Positions 29,801 to 64,000 of a stretch of 64,000 nt of DNA are shown here, piece after piece (the stretch's first letter is position 1; each line of letters starts with the position of its first letter). Location: positions 6,203,962-6,267,961 of the forward strand of contig OZ024933.1 in the NCBI GenBank assembly GCA_964017235.1, given 5' to 3'. Source of the DNA: Sabellastarte sp. h YS-2021. Taxonomy: Eukaryota; Annelida; Polychaeta; Sabellida; Sabellidae. A program made the translations under genes and the position numbers. Under the pieces are notes generated by a model that saw nothing but the letters and a program-made list of their open reading frames with translations, was not told where the DNA came from and ran no database searches.

Positions 29801-29839
29801 CCTGCCCAATCTGCTGACTCAGCCCTTAAATCAGATCCC

Positions 29840-31375: not shown

Positions 31376-31436
31376 ACACAAGACCCTCCCACCGACCCCG
31401 CTTTCAATTTACTAGGGGTCTAATAGGTTTAGACAA

Positions 31437-32457: not shown

Positions 32458-32558
32458 TATCTTGGTATCGAGACCATTTTACTGAAATACCGTGATGAGA
32501 TTTTACAACCACCTCTTCCGTGTCAGCACATATAATAGAAAGAAGACTGAAAATATTA

Positions 32559-36280: not shown

Positions 36281-36289
36281 CAATCATTG

Positions 36290-37260: not shown

Positions 37261-37510
37261 GTCAAATTCCTCTCAGCCTGCCAAATCTGCCCAATCTCTT
37301 GACACAGCCGTTCAATCAGATCCCTCACAGGAATCTGACAAACCTGAATCTCCATGCATGGCTCCTAGAGCCACAGCAATCAAGGAACAGGGTTTCTCTA
37401 AGGCAGTGGCAGCAAGAATTGAGGCTCCTCAAAGAAAATTAACCAGATCAGTCTATGAGGCAAAGTGGACCATTTTTACAAAGTGGTGCATCACTAATCA
37501 GGTGGACTTC

Positions 37511-38230: not shown

Positions 38231-39159
38231 GGTCACCACCTATAAAGTCAGTGGCTGACTTCCTTCTCTACCTTTTTGAGGTCAAGAGACTACAGCCCAG
38301 CACCATTGATGGATACAGGTCTGCCATTGCTGATAAACTGGGTAACATCACAGTCAATATCAGCAAAGATGATAATCTCACCCGTCTCTTAGATAGTTTC
38401 CACAGAGACAGACCCAAAGGGCGGAGGGGTATACCCTCATGGAACCTTTCTCTGGTCCTACACCAACTGACAAAGGCTCCCTTTGAACCTCTTAGGGAGG
38501 CGTCAATGAAGCATCTGACCTTCAAGACTGTCTTCCTTTTGGCCCTGGGTTCTGGCAAAAGAAGGAGTGAGATACATGCATGGCAGCATAAGAAAATTAG
38601 ACACCAGTCGGACTGGTCTAAGGTGTCCCTGTTTCCATCTCCCAGCTTTCTTTCCAAGAACCAGCTGGCCAAAGAGGGTCCGGAGTGTGTAGCCCCAGTG
38701 GTCATACCAGCCCTGGCTCCTACTCTGGATAGATCCCTCAAGTCTGACAGAACTCTTTGTCCAGTTCGAGCCTTGCGCTACTATTTGGACAGGACTTTAG
38801 ACTTTAGGCAGGGCAAAGAATTAGTTTTTGTCTCCTTCAAGAAAGGTTTTGACAAAGACATCTCACCTGCCACTATCTCCTCATGGATCAAGCAGATGGT
38901 GATCCTATGCTATGAGCTCTCTGATCAACAGGCCCACACCTTACATCAAGTCAAAGCTCATGATGTGAGGGCCTTTGCTGCCTCTAAAGCCTTCCAGTCG
39001 GGAATTTCCTTAGAGCAGATCCTAGCAGCCTGCCACTGGAAATCTCATAATACCTTCACTCAATTCTATCTGAAGGATGTGGCTTGGGCCGATTCAGAGC
39101 TCTACCATCTTGGTCCGGTTGTGGCTGCTCAGCAGATCCACCAAGGGACTAGTACCTAG
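38231..39159 (+). mobile_element. DIRS 2 tyrosine recombinase region (right of the MITE)
   Basis: A 302-codon frame starting ADFLLYLFEVKRLQPSTIDG and containing GSGKRRSEIHA, KAHDVRAFAAS and FTQFYLKDVAW, the recombinase catalytic features. It is about 90 percent identical by eye to DIRS 1 and nearly identical to the copies in the tandem units. Fossil element part. Confidence 0.88.
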
Positions 39160-39502
39160 AGGAGACCTGTACATACGTAGATAATTGTACATATCTGTAT
39201 ATATTGCACATATAGTTTAAAAAAAAAATCTGGACGTGCTTCCTTCGGGAGGATTACTCTATGGGACTGAACTCATCCCTCTCTTCCCCTACCTCAGAGC
39301 AGGTCTGTTCAAAAAGGGGGGGGGGCAAGGTCGACTGACGGTTCAACACCTTGTAACCGGATGATGATATTCGACCATAGCCTTAAGGGTTATCGACCTC
39401 AGGTCTTCCCAGGCTTTAAAGGAAATTGTTCATTATTTTTAGTATGAGTTCAAGCCTAGTCCCTAGTAACTTACCCGCCAACCAAGCGGTAGTTATTCAG
39501 CA

Positions 39503-39594
39503 ATTGTCCATTGGATAGGATGTATTAACGCAATAAAATTGCAAATTTAATAGGTAAATTAAATTTTTATAAGTTAATACCCTATCCAATGGAC
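39503..39594 (+). repeat. DIRS 2 internal complementary region
   Basis: Same two-part design as in DIRS 1, nearly identical in sequence (TAATAGGTAAATTAAATTTT versus TAATAAGTAAATTAAATTTT). It recurs in every unit, near 45320, 53840 and 59645. Confidence 0.88.
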
Positions 39595-39659
39595 ACACAA
39601 GACCCTCCCACCGACCCCGCTATCAGTCTACTAGGGGTCTAATAGGTTTAGACAACGAA

Positions 39660-39869
39660 AAAGATGCTATGACGTCACGCTGTCTAGACAGGAAGGAAAT
39701 ACGACACGCCACCTGGCGAGTGCACAGTACTGGGCCGGCCTGGCCGGTGGAGACACAGGACATCTTTTTCTGACGTTTGGCGGGCCGGTCCGCGCTGACC
39801 GGATAAGCAATTGTCCATTGGATAGGGTATTAACTTATAAAAATTTAATTTACCTATTAAATTTGCAAA
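39660..39869 (+). repeat. DIRS 2 right inverted terminal repeat
   Basis: Inverted match to 34653-34850, including the CRE-like TGACGTCA and CTGTCTAGACAG. The outer AT-rich end closes at AAATTTGCAA, which fixes the right boundary of the element. Confidence 0.85.
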
Positions 39870-39951
39870 CTTCTGGTGGTTTGTTCGTCTGTTGGCTAGA
39901 GCCATTATAAGTGAGTTACCCCCCACCCTAAGTATGAAAATTTTACCACAA

Positions 39952-42001
39952 CCCAGCAGGCACACAACTTTTGAAATCTGGTTGAATGCAACGTAGAAAT
40001 CTGGTTGAAATACGTGTAGATTTTGCAAACCATTTTTAGCTGGATCCAACCGGTGAAATCATGTTGAAACCAACGTTGAAATCAGGTTGAATTCAGTGGG
40101 TGAAATCTGGTTGAAATACGTGTAGATTTTGCAAACCATTTTTGGTTGGATCCAACCAGTGAAATCAGGTTGAATTCAATCGGTGAAATCAGGTTGAATT
40201 CAGTGGGTGAAATCTGGTTGAAATACATGTAGATTTTGCAAACCATATTTGGTTGGATCCAACCAATGAAATCAGGTTGAATTCAATTGGTGAAATCAGG
40301 TTGAATTCAATGGGTGAAATCTGGTTGAAATACGTGTAGATTTTGCAAACTGTTTTTGGTTGAATCCAATGTATGAAATAGGGTTGAATTCAATGGGTGA
40401 AATCAGGTTGTTTACACTGTCTTCTTTATTTGAATCATTGTAGCTTGTGTGTCATAATTATAGCTTCTTAATAATATTATACAATAACTATCCATATGCA
40501 TATTTTACAATTTGGATACATCTTCAAAATAATTAATTCTTTCCAAGATGACATGTTTTCATGAATCATTGTATATTCAATATTCTATTTCTGATGACAT
40601 TGTAATAACACATAATTTTGCATCAGCTTTCAAATATAATTGCTCAAGATATGTAAATCCATATTTTCCAACTAAATATCCATTTTTATGTTATTAATAG
40701 GACAGGTATTATTCAGAGCCTTCAATTGAAATTCTTTCTGTGAAATTTTAAAATAAATTTTTTTCTTTGTAAATAACAAACAACTGTGACATTATTTAGA
40801 TCATCAGTATTTTATCCAATCAGTTTCTTTTAAATGTTTTATTAATTTGGCTATAATTATATGGTAATTATAAAGAAGCTATAATCATGTAGCAAAGCCA
40901 CAATGCTCAGTTCAGATACTTGTGTCTCATACAACTTTGTCATATATACTGAAAAAAAAACACAAGAAAAGCCACATTTGTAGAACTCAACCCATTACTC
41001 CCCACCTTAATTAGTTGTCAGTTCTGACCCACAAAAAAAACAGACCTAAGGAAGTAAACACCATGCATGCAATTGAGCAAGGGTAAACCCCCACCTCCAC
41101 CCCTGCTGTGTTATCTAATTACTTTTAGTCACAGGCCTTATGTTCCGTGTAGCAGGGTACAGATAAGAAAACCAGGAACCCCCCCAACCTCACTGTTGTG
41201 TGATAAGATGCTATAGCTTAGGTTCTCTGTATAGAGAAGTTTTCAGTGTAAACTTGCAAACTGAAAACTAGTTATTTGTGTATTGGAGAATTTGAGACAC
41301 AAATTCAAATTACTAAGTTTTGATGAATAAGTTTGAATTTATCTTTTTTTATTTAAGATAAGTTTGACTTAAAAATGTTTTTTTAATTATCAAGAATTGC
41401 ATTAATCAAAATATAATTATAAATTATAAAAATTACATTTGGGTGCATCAGTTTTGTTGTTGCTATAAATTAATAAGGAGAATGGATAAAAGCTACAAGT
41501 ACATGCAAGTACAAAAGCTACAAGTACATAATCATTATCATCTTCATAATCTTTAAAAATTAGTCTTTGCTTTAGAAATACCTACAAATTCAAAAACGAT
41601 TGCAATAATAGTTCTTTCAAAAAGTTAGACTTAATCACTATATCACCCTCTAGAAAAAGAATTTTCAACCAAAGATCACTAGTCATTCATTTCCCAATAT
41701 TCAACCTGTTTTCTGTTCAATAACATGACTAAGATTTCATGTCAAAAAACCTAACTTGATTTAGTGGTGATTTTTTGTGAAGTATCACTACTTTTTCCAG
41801 TCAGAAATCCAGCTTTGAAATAGTGTTGAAATTGTGTCAGTGTCAATTTTTCAACCAAAATTCACCATTTCTGGTCAAAATATCACTACTTTTTCATGTC
41901 AGAAAACTAACTTAGATATAGTAGTTGATAATGTGCATTTCAACGTCAGGACCTGTTTTCAACTTTAAATCAATGACATTTCAAGGCGTGTGCCTGCTGG
42001 G
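39952..42001. mobile_element. 2-kb TIR element, orientation 2 (unit 1)
   Basis: Inverted relative to the copy at 32559-34543: the 107-bp array (GGTTGAATTCA, GGTTGGATCCAACC, TGTAGATTTTGCAAACC) is now at the left. Ends are CCCAGCAGGCACACAAC and GTGTGCCTGCTGGG. Confidence 0.87.
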
Positions 42002-42099
42002 AATTTTCTCAGTAACTAATGCAGGGATTTCTCTGAGATCTTGCACATATGTACTAGGTCACAAGTAGATTCCCTTGTGTGAGTGTCAGACCTGGATCT

Positions 42100-42500
42100 T
42101 TCTTAATTATATTTTTATGAATTTTTAAAATAATTTTTAATGCATTAAAATTAATGAAATCATGCACTAAATCAATTATAACTTGAAAAGTCTTGCATTT
42201 AGAGCATTTTGTTAAAATATATTAATCAGCTACTTTTTCCATAGCTACAACATGGTGAGTAACTTGGATGTCTATTTCAATAGCTAAGTGAGTAATAGCT
42301 ACTTTGTCAATTTTTATTGATAACCATAATGAGTAAATGGCTTACATCTTCAAAAGTATTGCAGCTACACAATTCCTCTCAAATATGTTGTTCATCTACT
42401 TTTTTGTGAACTGTAACATATTTAAGTTTCACAACTGTTACTCAACGTACAAGTGAGTAATGGCTACTTTATTGCTACTTTTAGTGAAAATGTGAAAAAT
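42100..42500 (-). repeat. Diverged satellite monomers (AGCTACTTT...GAGTAA) in unit 1
   Basis: In reverse complement this region matches 6960-7130: TTAGTGCATGATTTCAT, TTTTCAAGTTATAA and GTTACTCACCATGTTGTAGC. It links the 5.8-kb unit to the satellite family of the left 12 kb. It recurs in each unit. Confidence 0.75.
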
Positions 42501-42503
42501 CAC

Positions 42504-43415
42504 AAATATCTCGCAAACCGTAAGAGATAGAGCGATTTCGAGCAAATTTTTGACCCACAGGGTGTCCTGTGGAAAGGGGGAAAATTTCAATTTTCGCCAC
42601 TTTTGGCGGCCATCTTGGCTTTTCGCGGAAAATGAAAAAGTGTCAATATCTCGAAAACCGTAAGAGATGGAGCAATTTCCAGCAAATTTTTGACGCACAG
42701 GGTAGTACAAGAGTCTCCTGTCCAATGGGGGAAAATTTCAATTTTCGCCACTTTTGGCGGCCATCTTGGATTTTCGCGGAAAATGAAAAAGAGTCAATAC
42801 CTCGAAAACTGTAAGAGATAGAGAGATTTCGAGCGAATTTTTGACCCCCAGGGTGGTACAAGAGTCTCCTGTTCGAAGGAGGGAAATTTCAATTTTCGCC
42901 ACTTTCGGCGGCCATCTTGAATTTTTGCGGAAAATGGAAAAGTGTCAATATCTCGAAAACCGTAATAGATAGAGCGATTTCGAGCGAATTTTTTAACCGC
43001 ATGGTGGTACAAGAGTGACCTGTGGAAAGGGGGAAAATTTCAATTTTCGTCACTTTTGGCGGCCATCTTGGCTTTTCGCGGAAAATGAAAAAGTGTCAAT
43101 ATCTCGAAAACCGTAAGAGATGGAGCAATTTCCAGCAAATTTTTGACGCACAGGGTAGTACAAGAGTCTCCTGTCCAATGGAGGAAAATTTCAATTTTCG
43201 CCACTTTTGGCGGCCATCTTGGATTTTCGCGGAAAATGAAAAAGAGTCAATACCTCGAAAGCCGTAAGAAATAGAGCGATTTCGAGCGAATTTTTGACCC
43301 ACAGGGTGCTACAAGAGTGTCCTGTGCAAAGGGGAAAAATTTCAATTTTTGCCACTTTCGGCGGCCATCTTGGATTTTTGCGGAAAATGGAAAAGTGTCA
43401 ATATCTCGAAAACCG
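42504..43415. repeat. 151-bp tandem repeat, six steps (unit 1)
   Basis: The word TCAATATCTCGAAAACCGTA (or a variant) starts near 42504, 42645, 42797, 42948, 43099, 43250 and 43400. Each unit has GATTTCGAGCGAATTTTTGA and GGCGGCCATCTTGG. In reverse complement it resembles the 169-bp family at 11090-11700. All 60-100 codon frames over it are by-products. Equivalent blocks are at 51040-51945 and 56840-57750 (six steps) and 48310-48768 and 62646-63102 (three steps). Confidence 0.9.
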
Positions 43416-43419
43416 TTAA

Positions 43420-43634
43420 GCCCTGTTTCCATGTACGCGGGTCGCGGTAGCGATAAAAATCGATCCTACATGAATACTCAGCAGTGTTTCCATTTCCGCG
43501 GGTCGCGGCTGCGGATAGCGGGATGCGGTATATGCGGGACGTTATTTTTAATTCGATCCCTGACCGATTTTTTCCGCGACCCGCTAGCGGCAGGCGGGAA
43601 TCGCGTCCCGCTACCGCGTACATGGAAATAGCGC
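43420..43634. mobile_element. 215-bp TTAA-flanked MITE (unit 1)
   Basis: GCCCTGTTTCCATGTACGCG ... CGCGTACATGGAAATAGCGC, with TTAA at 43416-43419 and 43635-43638. It is inserted in a 151-bp repeat (CCGTTAAGAGATAG). The TTAA target fits piggyBac- or Kolobok-like elements; a TTA-type PIF/Harbinger origin is an alternative. GC-rich inner repeats of CGGGTCGCGG. No transposase. Confidence 0.85.
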
Positions 43635-43740
43635 TTAAGAGATAGAGCGATTTCGAGCGAATTTTTGACCCCACAGTATGGTACAACAGTGTCCTATGCA
43701 AAGGGGAAAATTTTCAATTTAGTATTTCTTCCCCTGCGGT

Positions 43741-44154
43741 ACTCGGCGGGAGATACATACCGCGGCAGTGGTCTTGTTATCTTTTATTTTTTAAAAACAC
43801 TGTTTAATATGTATAATGTCTTTTCCTCTAGGTGACCTATAATGTCATTATTAGTCTTCATCTTTTCATTAGAAAATTGATTTTCAAGCCCAGGGCTTGT
43901 TGTTATTGATAGTGAAGACCTTGGGGCTGTATATTGTATATATTTTTTTATTTGGGGTTTTATGGCGCTTTCAACACTGTACAGGTCATATCACGATGGG
44001 TAATTGGGAGGGCAGAGGAAACCAGTACATACAGTTGTTCAAAGTTGTTCCAGCTTTCCCACTTGAGGTCGGGGCGTGAAGGAAACTGGAATCACTCACC
44101 CCAGTGGGGTGGACATATTATTTTTCCGCCGTCCAGATGCTTGGTTTGAATGGT
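43741..44154. repeat. Unit tail with CTCGGCGGGAG module and conserved CAGTACATACAGTT segment
   Basis: 43741-43776 is the reverse complement of the module at 3764-3799. At 43965-44044 lies a segment matching 17931-18002 inverted. Its frames read GRAEETSTYS and GRGNQYIQL, which I recall from lancelet repeat-derived predictions. The segment recurs at 49318-49397, 52495-52574, 58300-58379 and 63652-63731. Confidence 0.6.
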
Positions 44155-44966
44155 TCACAGTCAATATCAGCAAAGATGATAATCTCACCCGTCTCTTAGA
44201 TAGTTTCCACAGAGACAGACCCAAAGGGCGGAGGAGTATACCCTCATGGAACCTTTCTCTGGTCCTACACCAACTGACAAAGGCTCCCTTTGAACCTCTT
44301 AGGGAGGCGTCAATGAAGCATCTGACCTTCAAGACTGTCTTCCTTTTGGCCCTGGGTTCTGGCAAAAGAAGGAGTGAGATACATGCATGGCAGCATAAGA
44401 AAATTAGACACCAGTCGGACTGGTCTAAGGTGTCCCTGTTTCCATCTCCCAGCTTTCTTTCCAAGAACCAGCTGGCCAAAGAGGGTCCGGAGTGTGTAGC
44501 CCCAGTGGTCATACCAGCCCTGGCTCCTACTCTGGATAGATCCCTCAAGTCTGACAGAACTCTTTGTCCAGTTCGAGCCTTGCGCTACTATTTGGACAGG
44601 ACTTTAGACTTTAGGCAGGGCAAAGAATTAGTTTTTGTCTCCTTCAAGAAAGGTTTTGACAAAGACATCTCACTTGCCACTATCTCCTCATGGATCAAGC
44701 AGATGGTGATCCTATGCTATGAGCTCTCTGATCAACAGGCCCACACCTTACATCAAGTCAAAGCTCATGATGTGAGGGCCTTTGCTGCCTCTAAAGCCTT
44801 CCAGTCGGGAATTTCCTTAGAGCAGATCCTAGCAGCCTGCCACTGGAAATCTCATAATACCTTCACTCAATTCTATCTGAAGGATGTGGCTTGGGCCGAT
44901 TCAGAGCTCTACCATCTTGGTCCGGTTGTGGCTGCTCAGCAGATCCACCAAGGGACTAGTACCTAG
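44076..44966 (+). CDS. 296-codon chimeric frame: unit tail fused to DIRS recombinase fragment (unit 2)
   Basis: The first 27 codons (KETGITHPSGVDILFFRRPD and following) come from the tail of the 5.8-kb unit. From codon 28 (TVNISKDDN) the frame is DIRS recombinase with GSGKRRSEIHA, HDVR and FYLKDVAW. The fusion is created by the tandem junction at 44154/44155 and is in frame. It is a fossil-derived frame with no sign of its own promoter. Function is unlikely but untested. Confidence 0.55.
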   Translation: MKETGITHPSGVDILFFRRPDAWFEWFTVNISKDDNLTRLLDSFHRDRPKGRRSIPSWNLSLVLHQLTKAPFEPLREASMKHLTFKTVFLLALGSGKRRSEIHAWQHKKIRHQSDWSKVSLFPSPSFLSKNQLAKEGPECVAPVVIPALAPTLDRSLKSDRTLCPVRALRYYLDRTLDFRQGKELVFVSFKKGFDKDISLATISSWIKQMVILCYELSDQQAHTLHQVKAHDVRAFAASKAFQSGISLEQILAACHWKSHNTFTQFYLKDVAWADSELYHLGPVVAAQQIHQGTST

Positions 44967-45675
44967 AGGAGACCTGTACATACGTAGATAATTGTACATA
45001 TCTGTATATATTGCACATATAGTTTAAAAAAAAAATCTGGACGTGCTTCCTTCGGGAGGATTACTCTATGGGACTGAACTCATCCCTCTCTTCCCCTACC
45101 TCAGAGCAGGTCTGTTCAAAAAGGGGGGGGGGCAAGGTCGACTGACGGTTCAACACCTTGTAACCGGATGATGATATTCGACCATAGCCTTAAGGGTTAT
45201 CGACCTCAGGTCTTCCCAGGCTTTAAAGGAAATTGTTCATTATTTTTAGTATGAGTTCAAGCCTAGTCCCTAGTAACTTACCCGCCAACCAAGCGGTAGT
45301 TATTCAGCAATTGTCCATTGGATAGGATGTATTAACGCAATAAAATTGCAAATTTAATAGGTAAATTAAATTTTTATAAGTTAATACCCTATCCAATGGA
45401 CACACAAGACCCTCCCACCGACCCCGCTATCAGTCTACTAGGGGTCTAATAGGTTTAGACAACGAAAAAAATGCTATGACGTCACGCTGTCTAGACAGGA
45501 AGGAAGTACGACACGCCACCTGGCGAGTGCACAGTACTGGGCCGGCCTGGTCGGTGTAGACACAGGACATCTTTTTCTGACGTTTGGCGGGCCGGTCCGC
45601 GCTGACCGGATAAGCAATTGTCCATTGGATAGGGTATTAACTTATAAAAATTTAATTTACCTATTAAATTTGCAA
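44155..45675 (+). mobile_element. DIRS 3' fragment (unit 2)
   Basis: Recombinase 3' part, ICR and right ITR, ending AAATTTGCAA. A copy of 38348-39869 made by segmental duplication, not by a new insertion, because flanks are shared. Confidence 0.9.
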
Positions 45676-45758
45676 ACTTCTGGTGGTTTGTTCGTCTGTT
45701 GGCTAGAGCCATTATAAGTGAGTTACCCCCCACCCTAAGTATGAAAATTTTACCACAA

Positions 45759-47807
45759 CCCAGCAGGCACACAACTTTTGAAATCTGGTTGAATCCAACG
45801 TAGAAATCTGGTTGAAATACGTGTAGATTTTGCAAACCATTTTTAGCTGGATCCAACCGGTGAAATCATGTTGAAACCAACGTTGAAATCAGGTTGAATT
45901 CAGTGGGTGAAATCTGGTTGAAATACGTGTAGATTTTGCAAACCATTTTTGGTTGGATCCAACCAGTGAAATCAGGTTGAATTCAATCGGTGAAATCAGG
46001 TTGAATTCAGTGGGTGAAATCTGGTTGAAATACATGTAGATTTTGCAAACCATATTTGGTTGGATCCAACCAATGAAATCAGGTTGAATTCAATTGGTGA
46101 AATCAGGTTGAATTCAATGGGTGAAATCTGGTTGAAATACGTGTAGATTTTGCAAACTGTTTTTGGTTGAATCCAATGTATGAAATAGGGTTGAATTCAA
46201 TGGGTGAAATCAGGTTGTTTACACTGTCTTCTTTATTTGAATCATTGTAGCTTGTGTGTCATAATTATAGCTTCTTAATAATATTATACAATAACTATCC
46301 ATATGCATATTTTACAATTTGGATACATCTTCAAAATAATTAATTCTTTCCAAGATGACATGTTTTCATGAATCATTGTATATTCAATATTCTATTTCTG
46401 ATGACATTGTAATAACACATAATTTTGCATCAGCTTTCAAATATAATTGCTCAAGATATGTAAATCCATATTTTCCAACTAAATATCCATTTTTATGTTA
46501 TTAATAGGACAAGTATTATTCAGAGCCTTCAATTGAAATTCTTTCTGTGAAATTTTAAAATAAATTTTTTTCTTTGTAAATAACAAACAACTGTGACATT
46601 ATTTAGATCATCAGTATTTTATCCAATCAGTTTCTTTTAAATGTTTTATTAATTTGGCTATAATTATATGGTAATTATAAAGAAGCTATAATCATGTAGC
46701 AAAGCCACAATGCTCAGTTCAGATACTTGTGTCTCATACAACTTTGTCATATATACTGAAAAAAAACACAAGAAAAGCCACATTTGTAGAACTCAACCCA
46801 TTACTCCCCACCTTAATTAGTTGTCAGTTCTGACCCACAAAAAAAACAGACCTAAGGAAGTAAACACCATGCATGCAATTGAGCAAGGGTAAACCCCCAC
46901 CTCCACCCCTGCTGTGTTATCTAATTACTTTTAGTCACAGGCCTTATGTTCCGTGTAGCAGGGTACAGATAAGAAAACCAGGAACCCCCCCAACCTCACT
47001 GTTGTGTGATAAGATGCTATAGCTTAGGTTCTCTGTATAGAGAAGTTTTCAGTGTAAACTTGCAAACTGAAAACTAGTTATTTGTGTATTGGAGAATTTG
47101 AGACACAAATTCAAATTACTAAGTTTTGATGAATAAGTTTGAATTTATCTTTTTTTATTTAAGATAAGTTTGACTTAAAAATGTTTTTTTAATTATCAAG
47201 AATTGCATTAATCAAAATATAATTATAAATTATAAAAATTATATTTGGGTGCATCAGTTTTGTTGTTGCTATAAATTAATAAGGAGAATGGATAAAAGCT
47301 ACAAGTACATGCAAGTACAAAAGCTACAAGTACATAATCATTATCATCTTCATAATCTTTAAAAATTAGTCTTTGCTTTAGAAATACCTACAAATTCAAA
47401 AACGATTGCAATAATAGTTCTTTCAAAAAGTTAGACTTAATCACTATATCACCCTCTAGAAAAAGAATTTTCAACCAAAGATCACTAGTCATTCATTTCC
47501 CAATATTCAACCTGTTTTCTGTTCAATAACATGACTAAGATTTCATGTCAAAAAACCTAACTTGATTTAGTGGTGATTTTTTGTGAAGTATCACTACTTT
47601 TTCCAGTCAGAAATCCAGCTTTGAAATAGTGTTGAAATTGTGTCAGTGTCAATTTTTCAACCAAAATTCACCATTTCTGGTCAAAATATCACTACTTTTT
47701 CATGTCAGAAAACTAACTTAGATATAGTAGTTGATAATGTGCATTTCAACGTCAGGACCTGTTTTCAACTTTAAATCAATGACATTTCAAGGCGTGTGCC
47801 TGCTGGG
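45759..47807. mobile_element. 2-kb TIR element (unit 2)
   Basis: Same position and orientation as in unit 1, with near-identical sequence including the 107-bp array. Confidence 0.87.
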
Positions 47808-48772
47808 AATTTTCTCAGTAACTAATGCAGGGATTTCTCTGAGATCTTGCACATATGTACTAGGTCACAAGTAGATTCCCTTGTGTGAGTGTCAGACCTG
47901 GATCTTTCTTAATTATATTTTTATGAATTTTTAAAATAATTTTTAATGCATTAAAATTAATGAAATCATGCACTAAATCAATTATAACTTGAAAAGTCTT
48001 GCATTTAGAGCATTTTGTTAAAATATATTAATCAGCTACTTTTTCCATAGCTACAACATGGTGAGTAACTTGGATGTCTATTTCAATAGCTAAGTGAGTA
48101 ATAGCTACTTTGTCAATTTTTATTGATAACCATAATGAGTAAATGGCTTACATCTTCAAAAGTATTGCAGCTACACAATTCCTCTCAAATATGTTGTTCA
48201 TCTACTTTTTTGTGAACTGTAACATATTTAAGTTTCACAACTGTTACTCAACGTACAAGTGAGTAATGGCTACTTTATTGCTACTTTTAGTGAAAATGTG
48301 AAAAATCACAAATATCTCGCAAACCGTAAGAGATAGAGCGATTTCGAGCAAATTTTTGACCCACAGGGTGTCCTGTGGAAAGGGGGAAAATTTCAATTTT
48401 CGCCACTTTTGGCGGCCATCTTGGCTTTTCGCGGAAAATGAAAAAGTGTCAATATCTCGAAAACCGTAAGAGATGGAGCAATTTCCAGCAAATTTTTGAC
48501 GCACAGGGTAGTACAAGAGTCTCCTGTCCAATGGGGGAAAATTTCAATTTTCGCCACTTTTGGCGGCCATCTTGGATTTTCGCGGAAAATGAAAAAGAGT
48601 CAATACCTCGAAAGCCGTAAGAAATAGAGCGATTTCGAGCGAATTTTTGACCCACAGGGTGCTACAAGAGTGTCCTGTGCAAAGGGGAAAAATTTCAATT
48701 TTTGCCACTTTCGGCGGCCATCTTGGATTTTTGCGGAAAATGGAAAAGTGTCAATATCTCGAAAACCGTTAA

Positions 48773-48987
48773 GCCCTGTTTCCATGTACGCGGGTCGCGG
48801 TAGCGATAAAAATCGATCCTACATGAATACTCAGCAGTGTTTCCATTTCCGCGGGTCGCAGCTGCGGATAGCGGGATGCGGTATATGCGGGACGTTATTT
48901 TTAATTCGATCCCTGACTGATTTTTTCCGCGACCCGCTAGCGGCAGGCGGGAATCGCGTCCCGCTACCACGTACATGGAAATAGCGC
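48773..48987. mobile_element. 215-bp TTAA-flanked MITE (unit 2)
   Basis: Same insertion as 43420-43634, carried along by duplication. It shares GGTCGCAGCTGCG and CTACCACGTACATGG variants with the copy in unit 4. Confidence 0.85.
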
Positions 48988-49507
48988 TTAAGAGATAGAG
49001 CGATTTCGAGCGAATTTTTGACCCCACAGTATGGTACAACAGTGTCCTATGCAAAGGGGAAAATTTTCAATTTAGTATTTCTTCCCCTGCGGTACTCGGC
49101 GGGAGATACATACCGCGGCAGTGGTCTTGTTATCTTTTATTTTTTAAAAACACTGTTTAATATGTATAATGTCTTTTCCTCTAGGTGACCTATAATGTCA
49201 TTATTAGTCTTCATCTTTTCATTAGAAAATTGATTTTCAAGCCCAGGGCTTGTTGTTATTGATAGTGAAGACCTTGGGGCTGTATATTGTATATATTTTT
49301 TTATTTGGGGTTTTATGGCGCTTTCAACACTGTACAGGTCATATCACGATGGGTAATTGGGAGGGCAGAGGAAACCAGTACATACAGTTGTTCAAAGTTG
49401 TTCCAGCTTTCCCACTTGAGGTCGGGGCGTGAAGGAAACTGGAATCACTCACCCCAGTGGGGTGGACATATTATTTTTCCGCCGTCCAGATGCTTGGTTT
49501 GAATGGT

Positions 49508-52684: not shown

Positions 52685-53496
52685 TCACAGTCAATATCAG
52701 CAAAGATGATAATCTCACCCGTCTCTTAGATAGTTTCCACAGAGACAGACCCAAAGGGCGGAGGAGTATACCCTCATGGAACCTTTCTCTGGTCCTACAC
52801 CAACTGACAAAGGCTCCCTTTGAACCTCTTAGGGAGGCGTCAATGAAGCATCTGACCTTCAAGACTGTCTTCCTTTTGGCCCTGGGTTCTGGCAAAAGAA
52901 GGAGTGAGATACATGCATGGCAGCATAAGAAAATTAGACACCAGTCGGACTGGTCTAAGGTGTCCCTGTTTCCATCTCCCAGCTTTCTTTCCAAGAACCA
53001 GCTGGCCAAAGAGGGTCCGGAGTGTGTAGCCCCAGTGGTCATACCAGCCCTGGCTCCTACTCTGGATAGATCCCTCAAGTCTGACAGAACTCTTTGTCCA
53101 GTTCGAGCCTTGCGCTACTATTTGGACAGGACTTTAGACTTTAGGCAGGGCAAAGAATTAGTTTTTGTCTCCTTCAAGAAAGGTTTTGACAAAGACATCT
53201 CACCTGCCACTATCTCCTCATGGATCAAGCAGACGGTGATCCTATGCTATGAGCTCTCTGATCAACAGGCCCACACCTTACATCAAGTCAAAGCTCATGA
53301 TGTGAGGGCCTTTGCTGCCTCTAAAGCCTTCCAGTCGGGAATTTCCTTAGAGCAGATCCTAGCAGCCTGCCACTGGAAATCTCATAATACCTTCACTCAA
53401 TTCTATCTGAAGGATGTGGCTTGGGCCGATTCAGAGCTCTACCATCTTGGTCCGGTTGTGGCTGCTCAGCAGATCCACCAAGGGACTAGTACCTAG
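52606..53496 (+). CDS. 296-codon chimeric frame (unit 3)
   Basis: Same tail-recombinase fusion as at 44076-44966, across the junction at 52684/52685. It differs from the unit 2 frame by a few amino-acid substitutions and stays open. Fossil-derived; no promoter evidence. Confidence 0.55.
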   Translation: MKETGITHPSGVDILFFRRPDAWFEWFTVNISKDDNLTRLLDSFHRDRPKGRRSIPSWNLSLVLHQLTKAPFEPLREASMKHLTFKTVFLLALGSGKRRSEIHAWQHKKIRHQSDWSKVSLFPSPSFLSKNQLAKEGPECVAPVVIPALAPTLDRSLKSDRTLCPVRALRYYLDRTLDFRQGKELVFVSFKKGFDKDISPATISSWIKQTVILCYELSDQQAHTLHQVKAHDVRAFAASKAFQSGISLEQILAACHWKSHNTFTQFYLKDVAWADSELYHLGPVVAAQQIHQGTST

Positions 53497-54286
53497 AGGA
53501 GACCTGTACATACGTAGATAATTGTACATATCTGTATATATTGCACATATAGTTTAAAAAAAAAATCTGGACGTGCTTCCTTCGGGAGGATTACTCTATG
53601 GGACTGAACTCATCCCTCTCTTCCCCTACCTCAGAGCAGGTCTGTTCAAAAAGGGGGGGGCAAGGTCGACTGACGGTTCAACACCTTGTAACCGGATGAT
53701 GATATTCGACCATAGCCTTAAGGGTTATCGACCTCAGGTCTTCCCAGGCTTTAAAGGAAATTGTTCATTATTTTTAGTATGAGTTCAAGCCTAGTCCCTA
53801 GTAACTTACCCGCCAACCAAGCGGTAGTTATTCAGCAATTGTCCATTGGATAGGATGTATTAACGCAATAAAATTGCAAATTTAATAGGTAAATTAAATT
53901 TTTATAAGTTAATACCCTATCCAATGGACACACAAGACCCTCCCACCGACCCCGCTATCAGTCTACTAGGGGTCTAATAGGTTTAGACAACGAAAAAAAT
54001 GCTATGACGTCACGCTGTCTAGACAGGAAGGAAGTACGACACGCCACCTGGCGAGTGCACAGTACTGGGCCGGCCTGGTCGGTGGAGACACAGGACATCT
54101 TTTTCTGACGTTTGGCGGGCCGGTCCGCGCTGACCGGATAAGCAATTGTCCATTGGATAGGGTATTAACTTATAAAAATTTAATTTACCTATTAAATTTG
54201 CAAACTTCTGGTGGTTTGTTCGTCTGTTGGCTAGAGCCATTATAAGTGAGTTACCCCCCACCCTAAGTATGAAAATTTTACCACAA

Positions 54287-56336
54287 CCCAGCAGGCACAC
54301 AACTTTTGAAATCTGGTTGAATCCAACGTAGAAATCTGGTTGAAATACGTGTAGATTTTGCAAACCATTTTTAGCTGGATCCAACCGGTGAAATCATGTT
54401 GAAACCAACGTTGAAATCAGGTTGAATTCAGTGGGTGAAATCTGGTTGAAATACGTGTAGATTTTGCAAACCATTTTTGGTTGGATCCAACCAGTGAAAT
54501 CAGGTTGAGTTCAATCGGTGAAATCAGGTTGAATTCAGTGGGTGAAATCTGGTTGAAATACATGTAGATTTTGCAAACCATATTTGGTTGGATCCAACCA
54601 ATGAAATCAGGTTGAATTCAATTGGTGAAATCAGGTTGAATTCAATGGGTGAAATCTGGTTGAAATACGTGTAGATTTTGCAAACTGTTTTTGGTTGAAT
54701 CCAATGTATGAAATAGGGTTGAATTCAATGGGTGAAATCAGGTTGTTTACACTGTCTTCTTTATTTGAATCATTGTAGCTTGTGTGTCATAATTATAGCT
54801 TCTTAATAATATTATACAATAACTATCCATATGCATATTTTACAATTTGGATACATCTTCAAAATAATTAATTCTTTCCAAGATGACATGTTTTCATGAA
54901 TCATTGTATATTCAATATTCTATTTCTGATGACATTGTAATAACACATAATTTTGCATCAGCTTTCAAATATAATTGCTCAAGATATGTAAATCCATATT
55001 TTCCAACTAAATATCCATTTTTATGTTATTAATAGGACAGGTATTATTCAGAGCCTTCAATTGAAATTCTTTCTGTGAAATTTTAAAATAAATTTTTTTC
55101 TTTGTAAATAACAAACAACTGTGACATTATTTAGATCATCAGTATTTTATCCAATCAGTTTCTTTTAAATGTTTTATTAATTTGGCTATAATTATATGGT
55201 AATTATAAAGAAGCTATAATCATGTAGCAAAGCCACAATGCTCAGTTCAGATACTTGTGTCTCATACAACTTTGTCATATATACTGAAAAAAAAACACAA
55301 GAAAAGCCACATTTGTAGAACTCAACCCATTACTCCCCACCTTAATTAGTTGTCAGTTCTGACCCACAAAAAAAACAGACCTAAGGAAGTAAACACCATG
55401 CATGCAATTGAGCAAGGGTAAACCCCCACCTCCACCCCTGCTGTGTTATCTAATTACTTTTAGTCACAGGCCTTATGTTCCGTGTAGCAGGGTACAGATA
55501 AGAAAACCAGGAACCCCCCCAACCTCACTGTTGTGTGATAAGATGCTATAGCTTAGGTTCTCTGTATAGAGAAGTTTTCAGTGTAAACTTGCAAACTGAA
55601 AACTAGTTATTTGTGTATTGGAGAATTTGAGACACAAATTCAAATTACTAAGTTTTGATGAATAAGTTTGAATTTATCTTTTTTTATTTAAGATAAGTTT
55701 GACTTAAAAATGTTTTTTTAATTATCAAGAATTGCATTAATCAAAATATAATTATAAATTATAAAAATTACATTTGGGTGCATCAGTTTTGTTGTTGCTA
55801 TAAATTAATAAGGAGAATGGATAAAAGCTACAAGTACATGCAAGTACAAAAGCTACAAGTACATAATCATTATCATCTTCATAATCTTTAAAAATTAGTC
55901 TTTGCTTTAGAAATACCTACAAATTCAAAAACGATTGCAATAATAGTTCTTTCAAAAAGTTAGACTTAATCACTATATCACCCTCTAGAAAAAGAATTTT
56001 CAACCAAAGATCACTAGTCATTCATTTCCCAATATTCAACCTGTTTTCTGTTCAATAACATGACTAAGATTTCATGTCAAAAAACCTAACTTGATTTAGT
56101 GGTGATTTTTTGTGAAGTATCACTACTTTTTCCAGTCAGAAATCCAGCTTTGAAATAGTGTTGAAATTGTGTCAGTGTCAATTTTTCAACCAAAATTCAC
56201 CATTTCTGGTCAAAATATCACTACTTTTTCATGTCAGAAAACTAACTTAGATATAGTAGTTGATAATGTGCATTTCAACGTCAGGACCTGTTTTCAACTT
56301 TAAATCAATGACATTTCAAGGCGTGTGCCTGCTGGG
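54287..56336. mobile_element. 2-kb TIR element (unit 3)
   Basis: Same position and orientation as in unit 1, with the 107-bp array at its left. Carried by duplication. Confidence 0.87.
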
Positions 56337-57754
56337 AATTTTCTCAGTAACTAATGCAGGGATTTCTCTGAGATCTTGCACATATGTACTAGGTCACAAG
56401 TAGATTCCCTTGTGTGAGTGTCAGACCTGGATCTTTCTTAATTATATTTTTATGAATTTTTAAAATAATTTTTAATGCATTAAAATTAATGAAATCATGC
56501 ACTAAATCAATTATAACTTGAAAAGTCTTGCATTTAGAGCATTTTGTTAAAATATATTAATCAGCTACTTTTTCCATAGCTACAACATGGTGAGTAACTT
56601 GGATGTCTATTTCAATAGCTAAGTGAGTAATAGCTACTTTGTCAATTTTTATTGATAACCATAATGAGTAAATGGCTTACATCTTCAAAAGTATTGCAGC
56701 TACACAATTCCTCTCAAATATGTTGTTCATCTACTTTTTTGAGAACTGTAACATATTTAAGTTTCACAACTGTTACTCAACGTACAAGTGAGTAATGGCT
56801 ACTTTATTGCTACTTTTAGTGAAAATGTGAAAAATCACAAATATCTCGCAAACCGTAAGAGATAGAGCGATTTCGAGCAAATTTTTGACCCACAGGGTGT
56901 CCTGTGGAAAGGGGGAAAATTTCAATTTTCGCCACTTTTGGCGGCCATCTTGGCTTTTCGCGGAAAATGAAAAAGTGTCAATATCTCGAAAACCGTAAGA
57001 GATGGAGCAATTTCCAGCAAATTTTTGACGCACAGGGTAGTACAAGAGTCTCCTGTCCAATGGGGGAAAATTTCAATTTTCGCCACTTTTGGCGGCCATC
57101 TTGGATTTTCGCGGAAAATGAAAAAGAGTCAATACCTCGAAAACTGTAAGAGATAGAGAGATTTCGAGCGAATTTTTGACCCCCAGGGTGGTACAAGAGT
57201 CTCCTGTTCGAAGGAGGGAAATTTCAATTTTCGCCACTTTCGGCGGCCATCTTGAATTTTTGCGGAAAATGAAAAAGTGTCAATATCTCGAAAACCGTAA
57301 TAGATAGAGCGATTTCGAGCGAATTTTTTAACCGCATGGTGGTACAAGAGTGACCTGTGGAAAGGGGGAAAATTTCAATTTTCGTCACTTTTGGCGGCCA
57401 TCTTGGCTTTTCGCGGAAAATGAAAAAGTGTCAATATCTCGAAAACCGTAAGAGATGGAGCAATTTCCAGCAAATTTTTGACGCACAGGGTAGTACAAGA
57501 GTCTCCTGTCCAATGGAGGAAAATTTCAATTTTCGCCACTTTTGGCGGCCATCTTGGATTTTCGTGGAAAATGAAAAAGAGTCAATACCTCGAAAGCCGT
57601 AAGAAATAGAGCGATTTCGAGCGAATTTTTGACCCACAGGGTGCTACAAGAGTGTCCTGTGCAAAGGGGAAAAATTTCAATTTTTGCCACTTTCGGCGGC
57701 CATCTTGGATTTTTGCGGAAAATGGAAAAGTGTCAATATCTCGAAAACCGTTAA

Positions 57755-57969
57755 GCCCTGTTTCCATGTACGCGGGTCGCGGTAGCGATAAAAATCGATC
57801 CTACATGAATACTCAGCAGTGTTTCCATTTCCGCGGGTCGCGGCTGCGGATAGCGGGATGCGGTATATGCGGGACGTTATTTTTAATTCGATCCCTGACC
57901 GATTTTTTCCGCGACCCGCTAGCGGCAGGCGGGAATCGCGTCCCGCTACCGCGTACATGGAAATAGCGC
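57755..57969. mobile_element. 215-bp TTAA-flanked MITE (unit 3)
   Basis: Same insertion as in unit 1, with unit-1-type variants; TTAA at 57751-57754 and 57970-57973. Confidence 0.85.
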
Positions 57970-58410
57970 TTAAGAGATAGAGCGATTTCGAGCGAATTTT
58001 TGACCCCACAGTATGGTACAACAGTGTCCTATGCAAAGGGGAAAATTTTCAATTTAGTATTTCTTCCCCTGCGGTACTCGGCGGGAGATACATACCGCGG
58101 CAGTGGTCTTGTTATCTTTTATTTTTTAAAAACACTGTTTAATATGTATAATGTCTTTTCCTCTAGGTGACCTATAATGTCATTATTAGTCTTCATCTTT
58201 TCATTAGAAAATTGATTTTCAAGCCCAGGGCTTGTTGTTATTGATAGTGAAGACCTTGGGGCTGTATATTGTATATATTTTTTTATTTGGGGTTTTATGG
58301 CGCTTTCAACACTGTACAGGTCATATCACGATGGGTAATTGGGAGGGCAGAGGAAACCAGTACATACAGTTGTTCAAAGTTGTTCCAGCTTTCCCACTTG
58401 AGGTCGGGGC

Positions 58411-59301
58411 GTGAAGGAAACTGGAATCACTCACCCCAGTGGGGTGGACATATTATTTTTCCGCCGTCCAGATGCTTGGTTTGAATGGTTCACAGTCAAT
58501 ATCAGCAAAGATGATAATCTCACCCGTCTCTTAGATAGTTTCCACAGAGACAGACCCAAAGGGCGGAGGAGTATACCCTCATGGAACCTTTCTCTGGTCC
58601 TACACCAACTGACAAAGGCTCCCTTTGAACCTCTTAGGGAGGCGTCAATGAAGCATCTGACCTTCAAGACTGTCTTCCTTTTGGCCCTGGGTTCTGGCAA
58701 AAGAAGGAGTGAGATACATGCATGGCAGCATAAGAAAATTAGACACCAGTCGGACTGGTCTAAGGTGTCCCTGTTTCCATCTCCCAGCTTTCTTTCCAAG
58801 AACCAGCTGGCCAAAGAGGGTCCGGAGTGTGTAGCCCCAGTGGTCATACCAGCCCTGGCTCCTACTCTGGATAGATCCCTCAAGTCTGACAGAACTCTTT
58901 GTCCAGTTCGAGCCTTGCGCTACTATTTGGACAGGACTTTAGACTTTAGGCAGGGCAAAGAATTAGTTTTTGTCTCCTTCAAGAAAGGTTTTGACAAAGA
59001 CATCTCACCTGCCACTATCTCCTCATGGATCAAGCAGACGGTGATCCTATGCTATGAGCTCTCTGATCAACAGGCCCACACCTTACATCAAGTCAAAGCT
59101 CATGATGTGAGGGCCTTTGCTGCCTCTAAAGCCTTCCAGTCGGGAATTTCCTTAGAGCAGATCCTAGCAGCCTGCCACTGGAAATCTCATAATACCTTCA
59201 CTCAATTCTATCTGAAGGATGTGGCTTGGGCCGATTCAGAGCTCTACCATCTTGGTCCGGTTGTGGCTGCTCAGCAGATCCACCAAGGGACTAGTACCTA
59301 G
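58411..59301 (+). CDS. 296-codon chimeric frame (unit 4)
   Basis: Third occurrence of the tail-recombinase fusion, across the junction at 58489/58490. It is identical in amino acids to the unit 3 frame as far as I can see by eye. Fossil-derived; no promoter evidence. Confidence 0.55.
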   Translation: MKETGITHPSGVDILFFRRPDAWFEWFTVNISKDDNLTRLLDSFHRDRPKGRRSIPSWNLSLVLHQLTKAPFEPLREASMKHLTFKTVFLLALGSGKRRSEIHAWQHKKIRHQSDWSKVSLFPSPSFLSKNQLAKEGPECVAPVVIPALAPTLDRSLKSDRTLCPVRALRYYLDRTLDFRQGKELVFVSFKKGFDKDISPATISSWIKQTVILCYELSDQQAHTLHQVKAHDVRAFAASKAFQSGISLEQILAACHWKSHNTFTQFYLKDVAWADSELYHLGPVVAAQQIHQGTST

Positions 59302-60092
59302 AGGAGACCTGTACATACGTAGATAATTGTACATATCTGTATATATTGCACATATAGTTAAAAAAAAAAATCTGGACGTGCTTCCTTCGGGAGGATTACT
59401 CTATGGGACTGAACTCATCCCTCTCTTCCCCTACCTCAGAGCAGGTCTGTTCAAAAAGGGGGGGGGCAAGGTCGACTGACGGTTCAACACCTTGTAACCG
59501 GATGATGATATTCGACCATAGCCTTAAGGGTTATCGACCTCAGGTCTTCCCAGGCTTTAAAGGAAATTGTTCATTATTTTTAGTATGAGTTCAAGCCTAG
59601 TCCCTAGTAACTTACCCGCCAACCAAGCGGTAGTTATTCAGCAATTGTCCATTGGATAGGATGTATTAACGCAATAAAATTGCAAATTTAATAGGTAAAT
59701 TAAATTTTTATAAGTTAATACCCTATCCAATGGACACACAAGACCCTCCCACCGACCCCGCTATCAGTCTACTAGGGGTCTAATAGGTTTAGACAACGAA
59801 AAAAATGCTATGACGTCACGCTGTCTAGACAGGAAGGAAGTACGACACGCCACCTGGCGAGTGCACAGTACTGGGCCGGCCTGGTCGGTGTAGACACAGG
59901 ACATCTTTTTCTGACGTTTGGCGGGCCGGTCCGCGCTGACCGGATAAGCAATTGTCCATTGGATAGGGTATTAACTTATAAAAATTTAATTTACCTATTA
60001 AATTTGCAAACTTCTGGTGGTTTGTTCGTCTGTTGGCTAGAGCCATTATAAGTGAGTTACCCCCCACCCTAAGTATGAAAATTTTACCACAA

Positions 60093-62141
60093 CCCAGCAG
60101 GCACACAACTTTTGAAATCTGGTTGAATCCAACGTAGAAATCTGGTTGAAATACGTGTAGATTTTGCAAACCATTTTTAGCTGGATCCAACCGGTGAAAT
60201 CATGTTGAAACCAACGTTGAAATCAGGTTGAATTCAGTGGGTGAAATCTGGTTGAAATACGTGTAGATTTTGCAAACCATTTTTGGTTGGATCCAACCAG
60301 TGAAATCAGGTTGAATTCAATCGGTGAAATCAGGTTGAATTCAGTGGGTGAAATCTGGTTGAAATACATGTAGATTTTGCAAACCATATTTGGTTGGATC
60401 CAACCAATGAAATCAGGTTGAATTCAATTGGTGAAATCAGGTTGAATTCAATGGGTGAAATCTGGTTGAAATACGTGTAGATTTTGCAAACTGTTTTTGG
60501 TTGAATCCAATGTATGAAATAGGGTTGAATTCAATGGGTGAAATCAGGTTGTTTACACTGTCTTCTTTATTTGAATCATTGTAGCTTGTGTGTCATAATT
60601 ATAGCTTCTTAATAATATTATACAATAACTATCCATATGCATATTTTACAATTTGGATACATCTTCAAAATAATTAATTCTTTCCAAGATGACATGTTTT
60701 CATGAATCATTGTATATTCAATATTCTATTTCTGATGACATTGTAATAACACATAATTTTGCATCAGCTTTCAAATATAATTGCTCAAGATATGTAAATC
60801 CATATTTTCCAACTAAATATCCATTTTTATGTTATTAATAGGACAGGTATTATTCAGAGCCTTCAATTGAAATTCTTTCTGTGAAATTTTAAAATAAATT
60901 TTTTTCTTTGTAAATAACAAACAACTGTGACATTATTTAGATCATCAGTATTTTATCCAATCAGTTTCTTTTAAATGTTTTATTAATTTGGCTATAATTA
61001 TATGGTAATTATAAAGAAGCTATAATCATGTAGCAAAGCCACAATGCTCAGTTCAGATACTTGTGTCTCATACAACTTTGTCATATATACTGAAAAAAAA
61101 CACAAGAAAAGCCACATTTGTAGAACTCAACCCATTACTCCCCACCTTAATTAGTTGTCAGTTCTGACCCACAAAAAAAACAGACCTAAGGAAGTAAACA
61201 CCATGCATGCAATTGAGCAAGGGTAAACCCCCACCTCCACCCCTGCTGTGTTATCTAATTACTTTTAGTCACAGGCCTTATGTTCCGTGTAGCAGGGTAC
61301 AGATAAGAAAACCAGGAACCCCCCCAACCTCACTGTTGTGTGATAAGATGCTATAGCTTAGGTTCTCTGTATAGAGAAGTTTTCAGTGTAAACTTGCAAA
61401 CTGAAAACTAGTTATTTGTGTATTGGAGAATTTGAGACACAAATTCAAATTACTAAGTTTTGATGAATAAGTTTGAATTTATCTTTTTTTATTTAAGATA
61501 AGTTTGACTTAAAAATGTTTTTTTAATTATCAAGAATTGCATTAATCAAAATATAATTATAAATTATAAAAATTATATTTGGGTGCATCAGTTTTGTTGT
61601 TGCTATAAATTAATAAGGAGAATGGATAAAAGCTACAAGTACATGCAAGTACAAAAGCTACAAGTACATAATCATTATCATCTTCATAATCTTTAAAAAT
61701 TAGTCTTTGCTTTAGAAATACCTACAAATTCAAAAACGATTGCAATAATAGTTCTTTCAAAAAGTTAGACTTAATCACTATATCACCCTCTAGAAAAAGA
61801 ATTTTCAACCAAAGATCACTAGTCATTCATTTCCCAATATTCAACCTGTTTTCTGTTCAATAACATGACTAAGATTTCATGTCAAAAAACCTAACTTGAT
61901 TTAGTGGTGATTTTTTGTGAAGTATCACTACTTTTTCCAGTCAGAAATCCAGCTTTGAAATAGTGTTGAAATTGTGTCAGTGTCAATTTTTCAACCAAAA
62001 TTCACCATTTCTGGTCAAAATATCACTACTTTTTCATGTCAGAAAACTAACTTAGATATAGTAGTTGATAATGTGCATTTCAACGTCAGGACCTGTTTTC
62101 AACTTTAAATCAATGACATTTCAAGGCGTGTGCCTGCTGGG
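60093..62141. mobile_element. 2-kb TIR element (unit 4)
   Basis: Same position and orientation as in unit 2. Shares the AATTATATTTGGG variant with unit 2. Confidence 0.87.
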
Positions 62142-63106
62142 AATTTTCTCAGTAACTAATGCAGGGATTTCTCTGATATCTTGCACATATGTACTAGGTC
62201 ACAAGTAGATTCCCTTGTGTGAGTGTCAGACCTGGATCTTTCTTAATTATATTTTTATGAATTTTTAAAATAATTTTTAATGCATTAAAATTAATGAAAT
62301 CATGCACTAAATCAATTATAACTTGAAAAGTCTTGCATTTAGAGCATTTTGTTAAAATATATTAATCAGCTACTTTTTCCATAGCTACAACATGGTGAGT
62401 AACTTGGATGTCTATTTCAATAGCTAAGTGAGTAATAGCTACTTTGTCAATTTTTATTGATAACCATAATGAGTAAATGGCTTACATCTTCAAAAGTATT
62501 GCAGCTACACAATTCCTCTCAAATATGTTGTTCATCTACTTTTTTGTGAACTGTAACATATTTAAGTTTCACAACTGTTACTCAACGTACAAGTGAGTAA
62601 TGGCTACTTTATTGCTACTTTTAGTGAAAATGTGAAAAATCACAAATATCTCGCAAACCGTAAGAGATAGAGCGATTTCGAGCAAATTTTTGACCCACAG
62701 GGTGTCCTGTGGAAAGGGGGAAAATTTCAATTTTCGCCACTTTTGGCGGCCATCTTGGCTTTTCGCGGAAAATGAAAAAGTGTCAATATCTCGAAAACCG
62801 TAAGAGATGGAGCAATTTCCAGCAAATTTTTGACGCACAGGGTAGTACAAGAGTCTCCTGTCCAATGGGGGAAAATTTCAATTTTCGCCACTTTTGGCGG
62901 CCATCATGGATTTTCGCGGAAAATGAAAAAGAGTCAATACCTCGAAAGCCGTAAGAAATAGAGCGATTTCGAGCGAATTTTTGACCCCCAGGGTGCTACA
63001 AGAGTGTCCTGTGCAAAGGGAAAAAATTTCAATTTTTGCCACTTTCGGCGGCCATCTTGGATTTTTGCGGAAAATGGAAAAGTGTCAATATTTCGAAAAC
63101 CGTTAA

Positions 63107-63321
63107 GCCCTGTTTCCATGTACGCGGGTCGCGGTAGCGATAAAAATCGATCCTACATGAATACTCAGCAGTGTTTCCATTTCCGCGGGTCGCAGCTGCG
63201 GATAGCGGGATGCGGTATATGCGGGACGTTATTTTTAATTCGATCCCTGACCGATTTTTTCCGCGACCCGCTGGCGGCAGGCGGGAATCGCGTCCCGCTA
63301 CCACGTACATGGAAATAGCGC
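63107..63321. mobile_element. 215-bp TTAA-flanked MITE (unit 4)
   Basis: Same insertion as in unit 2 (GGTCGCAGCTGCG, CTACCACGTACATGG variants); TTAA at 63103-63106 and 63322-63325. Confidence 0.85.
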
Positions 63322-63841
63322 TTAAGAGATAGAGCGATTTCGAGCGAATTTTTGACCCCACAGTATGGTACAACAGTGTCCTATGCAAAGGGGAAAATTT
63401 TCAATTTAGTATTTCTTCCCCTGCGGTACTCGGCGGGAGATACATACCGCGGCAGTGGTCTTGTTATCTTTTATTTTTTAAAAACACTGTTTAATATGTA
63501 TAATGTCTTTTCCTCTAGGTGACCTATAATGTCATTATTAGTCTTCATCTTTTCATTAGAAAATTGATTTTCAAGCCCAGGGCTTGTTGTTATTGATAGT
63601 GAAGACCTTGGGGCTGTATATTGTATATATTTTTTTATTTGGGGTTTTATGGCGCTTTCAACACTGTACAGGTCATATCACGATGGGTAATTGGGAGGGC
63701 AGAGGAAACCAGTACATACAGTTGTTCAAAGTTGTTCCAGCTTTCCCACTTGAGGTCGGGGCGTGAAGGAAACTGGAATCACTCACCCCAGTGGGGTGGA
63801 CATATTATTTTTCCGCCGTCCAGATGCTTGGTTTGAATGGT

Positions 63842-64000
63842 TTCTGCTCATTTCAAGGAAAAGTATTTATCCTATCTTTACCAAATTTGGTATGGGTGTT
63901 TATTGGGTTAATAGCTTGCATGGGATTGCTTTTGGTGAAGATGGCTCTATAGCTAACTGAGTAATAGCTACTTAGCTACTTTTGTGGACTTCTTTTGTTT
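63842..64000. repeat. Type-B extension, cut by window end
   Basis: Identical by eye to 49508-49666. It shows that the 14.3-kb pattern continues beyond the window. Confidence 0.85.

Follow-up and report, generated by a model that had tools for sequence, protein, structure and literature searches.

How does a genome come to hold a large repeat that is itself assembled from smaller repeats? Such a repeat occupies the right part of a 64,000-nucleotide stretch of contig OZ024933.1 from the sabellid annelid Sabellastarte sp. h YS-2021 (assembly GCA_964017235.1, positions 6,203,962 to 6,267,961, forward strand); this whole stretch is called the window. A preliminary description had reported four units of about 5.8 kb in two forms, joined into a 14.3-kb block that was then duplicated. 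Herein, the repeats were mapped by self-BLAST of the window, the self-comparison which that description had called for, and the repeat was found. With moderate confidence, we favor the stepwise building of a young array in which a 5.8-kb stretch of transposon debris is tandemly repeated. A 5.8-kb duplication would have been followed by a second end-joined duplication, which made a partial unit (P), and by unequal homologous exchange in a 14.3-kb register.

Four near-identical units start at 38348, 44155, 52685 and 58490. The steps of 5807, 8530 and 5805 bp between them, as given in the preliminary description, are exact to the base, and the spacings of 14337 bp (units 1 and 3) and 14335 bp (units 2 and 4) follow from these starts and steps. 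The layout from left to right is U1-U2-F-P-U3-U4-F, in which F is a flank and P is the last 2755 bp of a unit:

38348..44154, plus strand: U1, the first unit, 5807 bp, with a long 151-bp array (self-BLAST, tandem-repeat count and unit alignment)
44155..49507, plus strand: U2, a short-form unit with 453 bp (3 x 151 bp) missing from the array (self-BLAST, tandem-repeat count and unit alignment)
49508..49929, plus strand: F, to the right of U2 and outside any unit, probably the original right flank (self-match)
49930..52684, plus strand: P, a partial unit corresponding to 41400-44154 (99.855% identity), starting inside a 2-kb element with terminal inverted repeats (TIR element) and carrying the long 151-bp array
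52685..58489, plus strand: U3, 5805 bp, with the long array; its left 1.4 kb groups with U2 and U4, and its equivalent of 41436 groups with U1
58490..63841, plus strand: U4, a short-form unit with markers in common with U2 (self-BLAST and unit alignment)
63842..64000, plus strand: the start of a second F, ended by the window edge and identical to 49508-49666

In the self-BLAST, 38348-49666 matched 52685-64000 at 99.79% identity over 11319 columns, with 21 mismatches and 2 gap openings. The identity was 99.48% between 38348-42963 and 44155-48769, and 99.61% between 41400-48769 and 49930-57298, at an offset of 8530. The copies adjoin head to tail on the same strand, with main alignments at 99.4-99.8%, which is the arrangement of a tandem segmental duplication. 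Judged from these alignments, chance is ruled out as the source of matches so long and so identical. The sole other long match of F in the window is the identical 159 bp at 63842-64000, and its remaining matches are 28-33 bp. One step of the 14.3-kb period is visible, because the window stops 159 bp into the second F.

The two forms of the unit are set apart by the length of an internal array:

start about 42505-42565, end 43416, plus strand: the 151-bp array of U1 (tandem-repeat count)

The count is 5.6 copies for each of U1, P and U3, against 2.6 for U2 and U4, a difference of 453 bp. The six versus three 151-bp steps previously used to separate units 1 and 3 from units 2 and 4 are borne out, and P is also of the long form. 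The long array consists of two 453-bp blocks of three steps each, and this pair is a small higher-order repeat that predates the 5.8-kb units. Since the blocks are 93% alike, whereas full units differ by 0.17-0.32%, the long array is ancestral and the short form of U2 and U4 a shared loss. By eye, a 169-bp array at 11090-11695 looks related to the 151-bp array, on the opposite strand.

Two non-homologous junctions were found. Junction A joins the unit end to 38348 in three identical instances, and junction B joins F to P in one:

44145..44162, plus strand, with further instances starting at 52675 and 58480: junction A, TTTGAATGGT joined to TCACAGTC, with one shared base
49920..49937, plus strand: junction B, GGCTGTTTCT joined to CATTAATC, a single instance in the window

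A single T is common to both native sequences at junction A, which suggests end joining. At junction B, the end of F does not match the bases left of 41400; microhomology there can be only partly judged because the native continuation of F lies outside the window. The native right border of the unit was matched twice, at 49498 and 63832. Position 38348 falls inside the tyrosine recombinase-like gene of DIRS2, a broken DIRS-like element, and 41400 falls inside the TIR element; neither is a recognized transposon end. The sequence of junction A is identical at 44155, 52685 and 58490, as expected of unequal homologous exchange. Since the supposed border of the 14.3-kb block at 52685 proves to be another instance of junction A, exchange in unit register suffices, and neither a third non-homologous break nor a separate 14.3-kb breakpoint is needed.

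From the observed junctions, offsets and base patterns, we infer a history of four steps. In the first, one-shared-base end joining at junction A would have linked the segment end to 38348, within the recombinase gene of DIRS2, to produce U1-U2 with F on its right. Recombination between the two old 453-bp blocks would then have removed 453 bp from the U2 array. The third step would be the second end-joined duplication, at junction B, in which F at 49929 was joined to unit position 41400 to give U1-U2-F-P-U2'-F'. In the fourth, U2' on one chromatid would have undergone unequal homologous exchange with U1 on another, 14,337 bp out of register. The product would read U1-U2-F-P-(U2'/U1)-U2-F and so on, with the hybrid as U3 and the U2 copy as U4.

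This history agrees with the junction census of three A, two native right borders and one B. In the intermediate of the third step, the start of U2' lies 14,337 bp to the right of the start of U1, and the observed period follows with no extra assumption. An exchange between U2' and U1 would make U3 a hybrid, U2-like on the left and U1-like on the right, matching the base patterns. A piece of U1 should have the long array and, at 43507 and 43616, the bases found in U1 and U3; P has all of these. The order proposed in the preliminary description, with the 5.8-kb duplication and the 2.75-kb piece preceding the 14.3-kb repetition, fits; its final duplication of a 14.3-kb block is better read as unequal homologous exchange because the border at 52685 is junction A.

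The base patterns come from an alignment of all five copies, which has 28 variable rows with the 453-bp gap counted as one; two more single-copy differences lie inside the gap (42937 in U1 and 43228 in P). Besides the 453-bp gap, U2 and U4 have in common a one-base gap at 40952, T at 39750 and A at both 43507 and 43616. C at 41436 is common to U1 and U3, and P, U2 and U4 have T. U3 agrees with U2 and U4 and differs from U1 at 38428 (A), 39663 (A) and 39744 (T). For polarizing these sites, a second DIRS-like element in the window, DIRS1 (30146-31651, 86% identical), and an inverted copy of the TIR element (89% identical) served as outgroups. The shared states at 38428, 39663, 39744, 39750 and 41436 are derived by this measure, and polarization failed for 43507 and 43616. 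The markers reported as private to units 1 and 3 or to units 2 and 4 are all real (AATTACATTTGGG at 41431 and 55766; GGTGGAGACAC at 39746 and 54081; GGTGTAGACAC at 45553 and 59887; AATTATATTTGGG at 47237 and 61571), except that AATTATATTTGGG occurs in P as well, at 49961. The pairing of unit 1 with 3 and of unit 2 with 4 holds in the right part of the unit and fails in the left 1.4 kb, where U3 carries the three derived bases of U2 and U4. U3 does not appear to be a plain copy of U1.

Parsimony was evaluated over all 105 single trees of the five copies and over two-tree mosaics, with a 28-site and a 26-site set. The homopolymer-G gap columns 39316 and 39317 were excluded from all counts, and the 26-site set also omits 42937 and 43228. 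The outgroup base at 40705, an A that among the copies is found in U2 alone, was treated as unknown because the alignment there is doubtful; if it is kept, U4 can be a plain copy of U2 only with a further change. For 42776, the long form was assigned to the outgroup, argued from the 453-bp blocks rather than from outgroup sequence. With 28 sites, the tree ((1,3),(2,4)) takes 32 steps, the best single tree 30 and the best two-tree mosaic 29. With 26 sites, the corresponding numbers are 30, 28 (reached by five single trees) and 27. The data disfavor the plain ((1,3),(2,4)) history by two steps. The best single trees place U1 apart from U2, U3 and U4 or beside P, and never beside U3. In the best mosaic, the breakpoint can lie anywhere from 39744 to 41436.

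Several points weigh against the stepwise history. The mosaic advantage is one step, and it was equaled or bettered in 2974 of 5000 shuffles of site order (all 105 trees, P included). When the CpG site 38897 was left out, 2460 of 5000 shuffles gained as much; when P was left out of the left tree, p = 1.0. A breakpoint inside U3 fits the data without statistical support, since the gain is one step and is matched by most shuffles. On the right side, 41436 is the sole site joining U1 with U3. Site 38897 (T in U1 and U2, C in U3 and U4) costs two changes even in the best mosaic; it is a CpG in U3 and U4 (ACGG), so a repeated C-to-T change is possible. The full-unit distances (U1-U3 0.17%, U1-U2 0.22%, U2-U3 0.21%, U2-U4 0.21%, U3-U4 0.26%, U1-U4 0.32%) are so alike that divergence alone cannot order the steps, and conversion between copies may have blurred it. 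All ten pairs including P lie at 0.15-0.39%, which indicates copies that are apparently either young or kept alike by conversion. The predicted U2'-F' falls outside the window. Five of the sites separating U1 from the rest lie in the left 1641 bp and the sixth, 42937, lies inside the columns of the 453-bp gap (figure 0.008); 6 of the 10 differences between U1 and U3 are in the left part (figure 0.036). Because the split point was picked after the data were seen, the case is not rested on the former figure, and the latter calls for the same caution.

Four other origins were weighed. The strongest of them, though unlikely, is an array that first reached three units, after which a 14.3-kb stretch that began within the first unit and ended with F was duplicated by a single end joining, at junction B, and one unit of the left block was later lost by recombination. 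The same junctions and groupings are accounted for by this route, including the grouping of the left part of U3 with U2 and U4; it takes one exchange more than the stepwise history, and the lost unit has left no trace in the window.

Only slightly less credible is an assembly artefact, in which haplotypes or array fragments of differing unit number were joined at 49929/49930 and the true locus is a plain 5.8-kb tandem array. The single occurrence of junction B in the window speaks for it, as does the difference of 0.2% between blocks, which falls within ordinary heterozygosity. The window contains no N, however, and the end of F does not match the native sequence to the left of 41400, so that no overlap was present to join on that side. 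Each copy also has private bases, and of 24 substitution sites the 23 other than 38897 comprise 15 transitions and 8 transversions, a pattern unlike a looped copy or random read error. In the older assemblies covered by PMC9516828, as excerpted, false duplications, mostly from divergent haplotypes, account for 4 to 16% of the sequence.

A single complex replication event with template switching, making all copies together, is very improbable. One shared base at junctions can occur in such events, as at junction A, and the pairwise distances are all close; however, U2 and U4 have in common the 453-bp loss and three bases (39750, 43507 and 43616), all absent from U1 and U3, which would need later conversion. 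Production of the copies by the DIRS recombinase or another transposon can practically be dismissed, because both breakpoints lie in element interiors rather than at ends, even though the unit holds a recombinase-gene fragment and several element types.

In the stepwise history, the transposons are passengers. The unit holds, in order, the recombinase fragment with the right end of DIRS2, the 2-kb TIR element, the 151-bp array, a 223-bp element resembling a miniature inverted-repeat transposable element (MITE-like), and about 0.5 kb more. The elements in and beside the unit are as follows:

34651..38347, plus strand: left and middle of DIRS2, including the first part of its tyrosine recombinase, outside the array (inverted match; Pfam matches below cut-off)
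34651-34844, plus strand: left inverted terminal repeat of DIRS2 (inverted match to 39844-39654, 83%)
34979-36280, plus strand: open reading frame (ORF) in the gag position of DIRS2 (no Pfam match)
37511-38228: 718-bp insert that splits the recombinase gene of DIRS2 and is bounded by inverted ends of the type TGGGGCCGGTTTCAT (missing from DIRS1 at 30025)
39499..39868, plus strand: right end of DIRS2, in all four full units (57-bp perfect inverted repeat, 39539-39595 / 39812-39868)
39952..42013, plus strand: 2-kb TIR element with a 107-bp internal array (a diverged copy, 89% identical and inverted, lies at 32546-34543)
43416..43638, plus strand: MITE-like element, 223 bp, with 25-bp inverted ends and TTAA at each end (inverted-repeat search)

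The preliminary description had DIRS termini, the TIR element and the MITE riding along with the array. This holds for the TIR element, the MITE-like element and the right DIRS terminus; the left end of DIRS2, at 34651, lies outside the array, so one terminus is carried and not both. The left end of the MITE-like element is exact in 5 of 5 copies and its right end in 3 of 5 (U1, P and U3), with U2 and U4 differing at the equivalent of 43616. No ORF of at least 120 amino acids lies wholly inside the TIR element, and no clear target duplication was seen by eye at the 718-bp insert. DIRS2 has the features of a DIRS-like element given in the excerpted text of PMC9210276, namely inverted terminal repeats and an internal complementary region (34653-34692, found inverted at 39499-39538 with 100% identity). 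Its recombinase region scored 26.6 bits with Phage_integrase, just below the Pfam cut-off of 27.1 (E-value 5.8e-6), and its RNase H remnant scored below both cut-offs (RVT_3 21.0 bits against 21.6; RT_RNaseH 21.9 bits against 24.8). The recombinase fragment is the sole Pfam match among the unit ORFs scanned, so there is no indication that the array affects anything other than the size and structure of the genome. A search of Rfam at gathering scores returned 0 matches, and ARAGORN, run with the bacterial code, gave 0 genes. In a collection of viral contigs, a 34-base pattern taken from the 151-bp array had 0 matches, and the recombinase fragment had 3 pattern matches, 0 of which proved to be relatives by tblastn; a 21-base satellite pattern had 0 matches in a collection of genome contigs.

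DIRS1 spans 20775-31651. A minus-strand Gypsy-like element (22168-25926) apparently interrupts it; the reverse transcriptase, RNase H and integrase of the Gypsy-like element pass the Pfam cut-offs, and its aspartyl protease comes near. Further left, a 133-bp satellite array of 28 copies lies at 7335-11089. It looks related to arrays at 3855-5830 (133 bp), 5987-6933 (155 bp) and 1390-2024 (143 bp), and the 133-bp ones match in self-BLAST.

In satellite higher-order repeats, unit forms repeat together as a larger block, and the two unit forms at this locus likewise repeat jointly. The difference is that two large blocks are visible here, with a 5.8-kb unit and a non-unit flank within the block. 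It is a speculative and rather unlikely idea that a satellite array is being born, with units still large and readable, both founding breaks and the first exchange in 14.3-kb register visible, further blocks past the window edge, and different copy numbers in different individuals. Most likely, the array reflects an ordinary mechanism by which genomes grow repeats.

Literature searches found no paper joining tandem duplication and unequal crossing over with DIRS and tyrosine recombinase, or joining tandem segmental duplication, unequal exchange, breakpoints, transposable elements and higher-order structure. DIRS2 resembles the DIRS-like retrotransposons of PMC9210276, as excerpted, in its inverted terminal repeats, internal complementary stretch, RNase H remnant and tyrosine-recombinase-like region; unlike them, it is broken, a passenger, and did not set the array ends. 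The excerpted text of PMC4232551 describes CUP1 arrays of yeast as founded from a single copy by unequal non-homologous recombination, and unequal crossover as a route to repeat-number change in an existing array. Founding by non-homologous recombination and copy-number change by unequal crossover are the likeness to CUP1, as far as that excerpt goes. Unlike CUP1, the unit here is transposon debris in which no selected gene was seen, and a second non-homologous junction, B, puts a flank and a partial unit inside the array. The locus illustrates in readable form how a complex tandem array may arise from two end-joining events and recombination, with predictions testable just past the window. 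The array is of a known kind, probably with non-homologous founding and unequal crossover, and what is new is the instance with a second founding junction.

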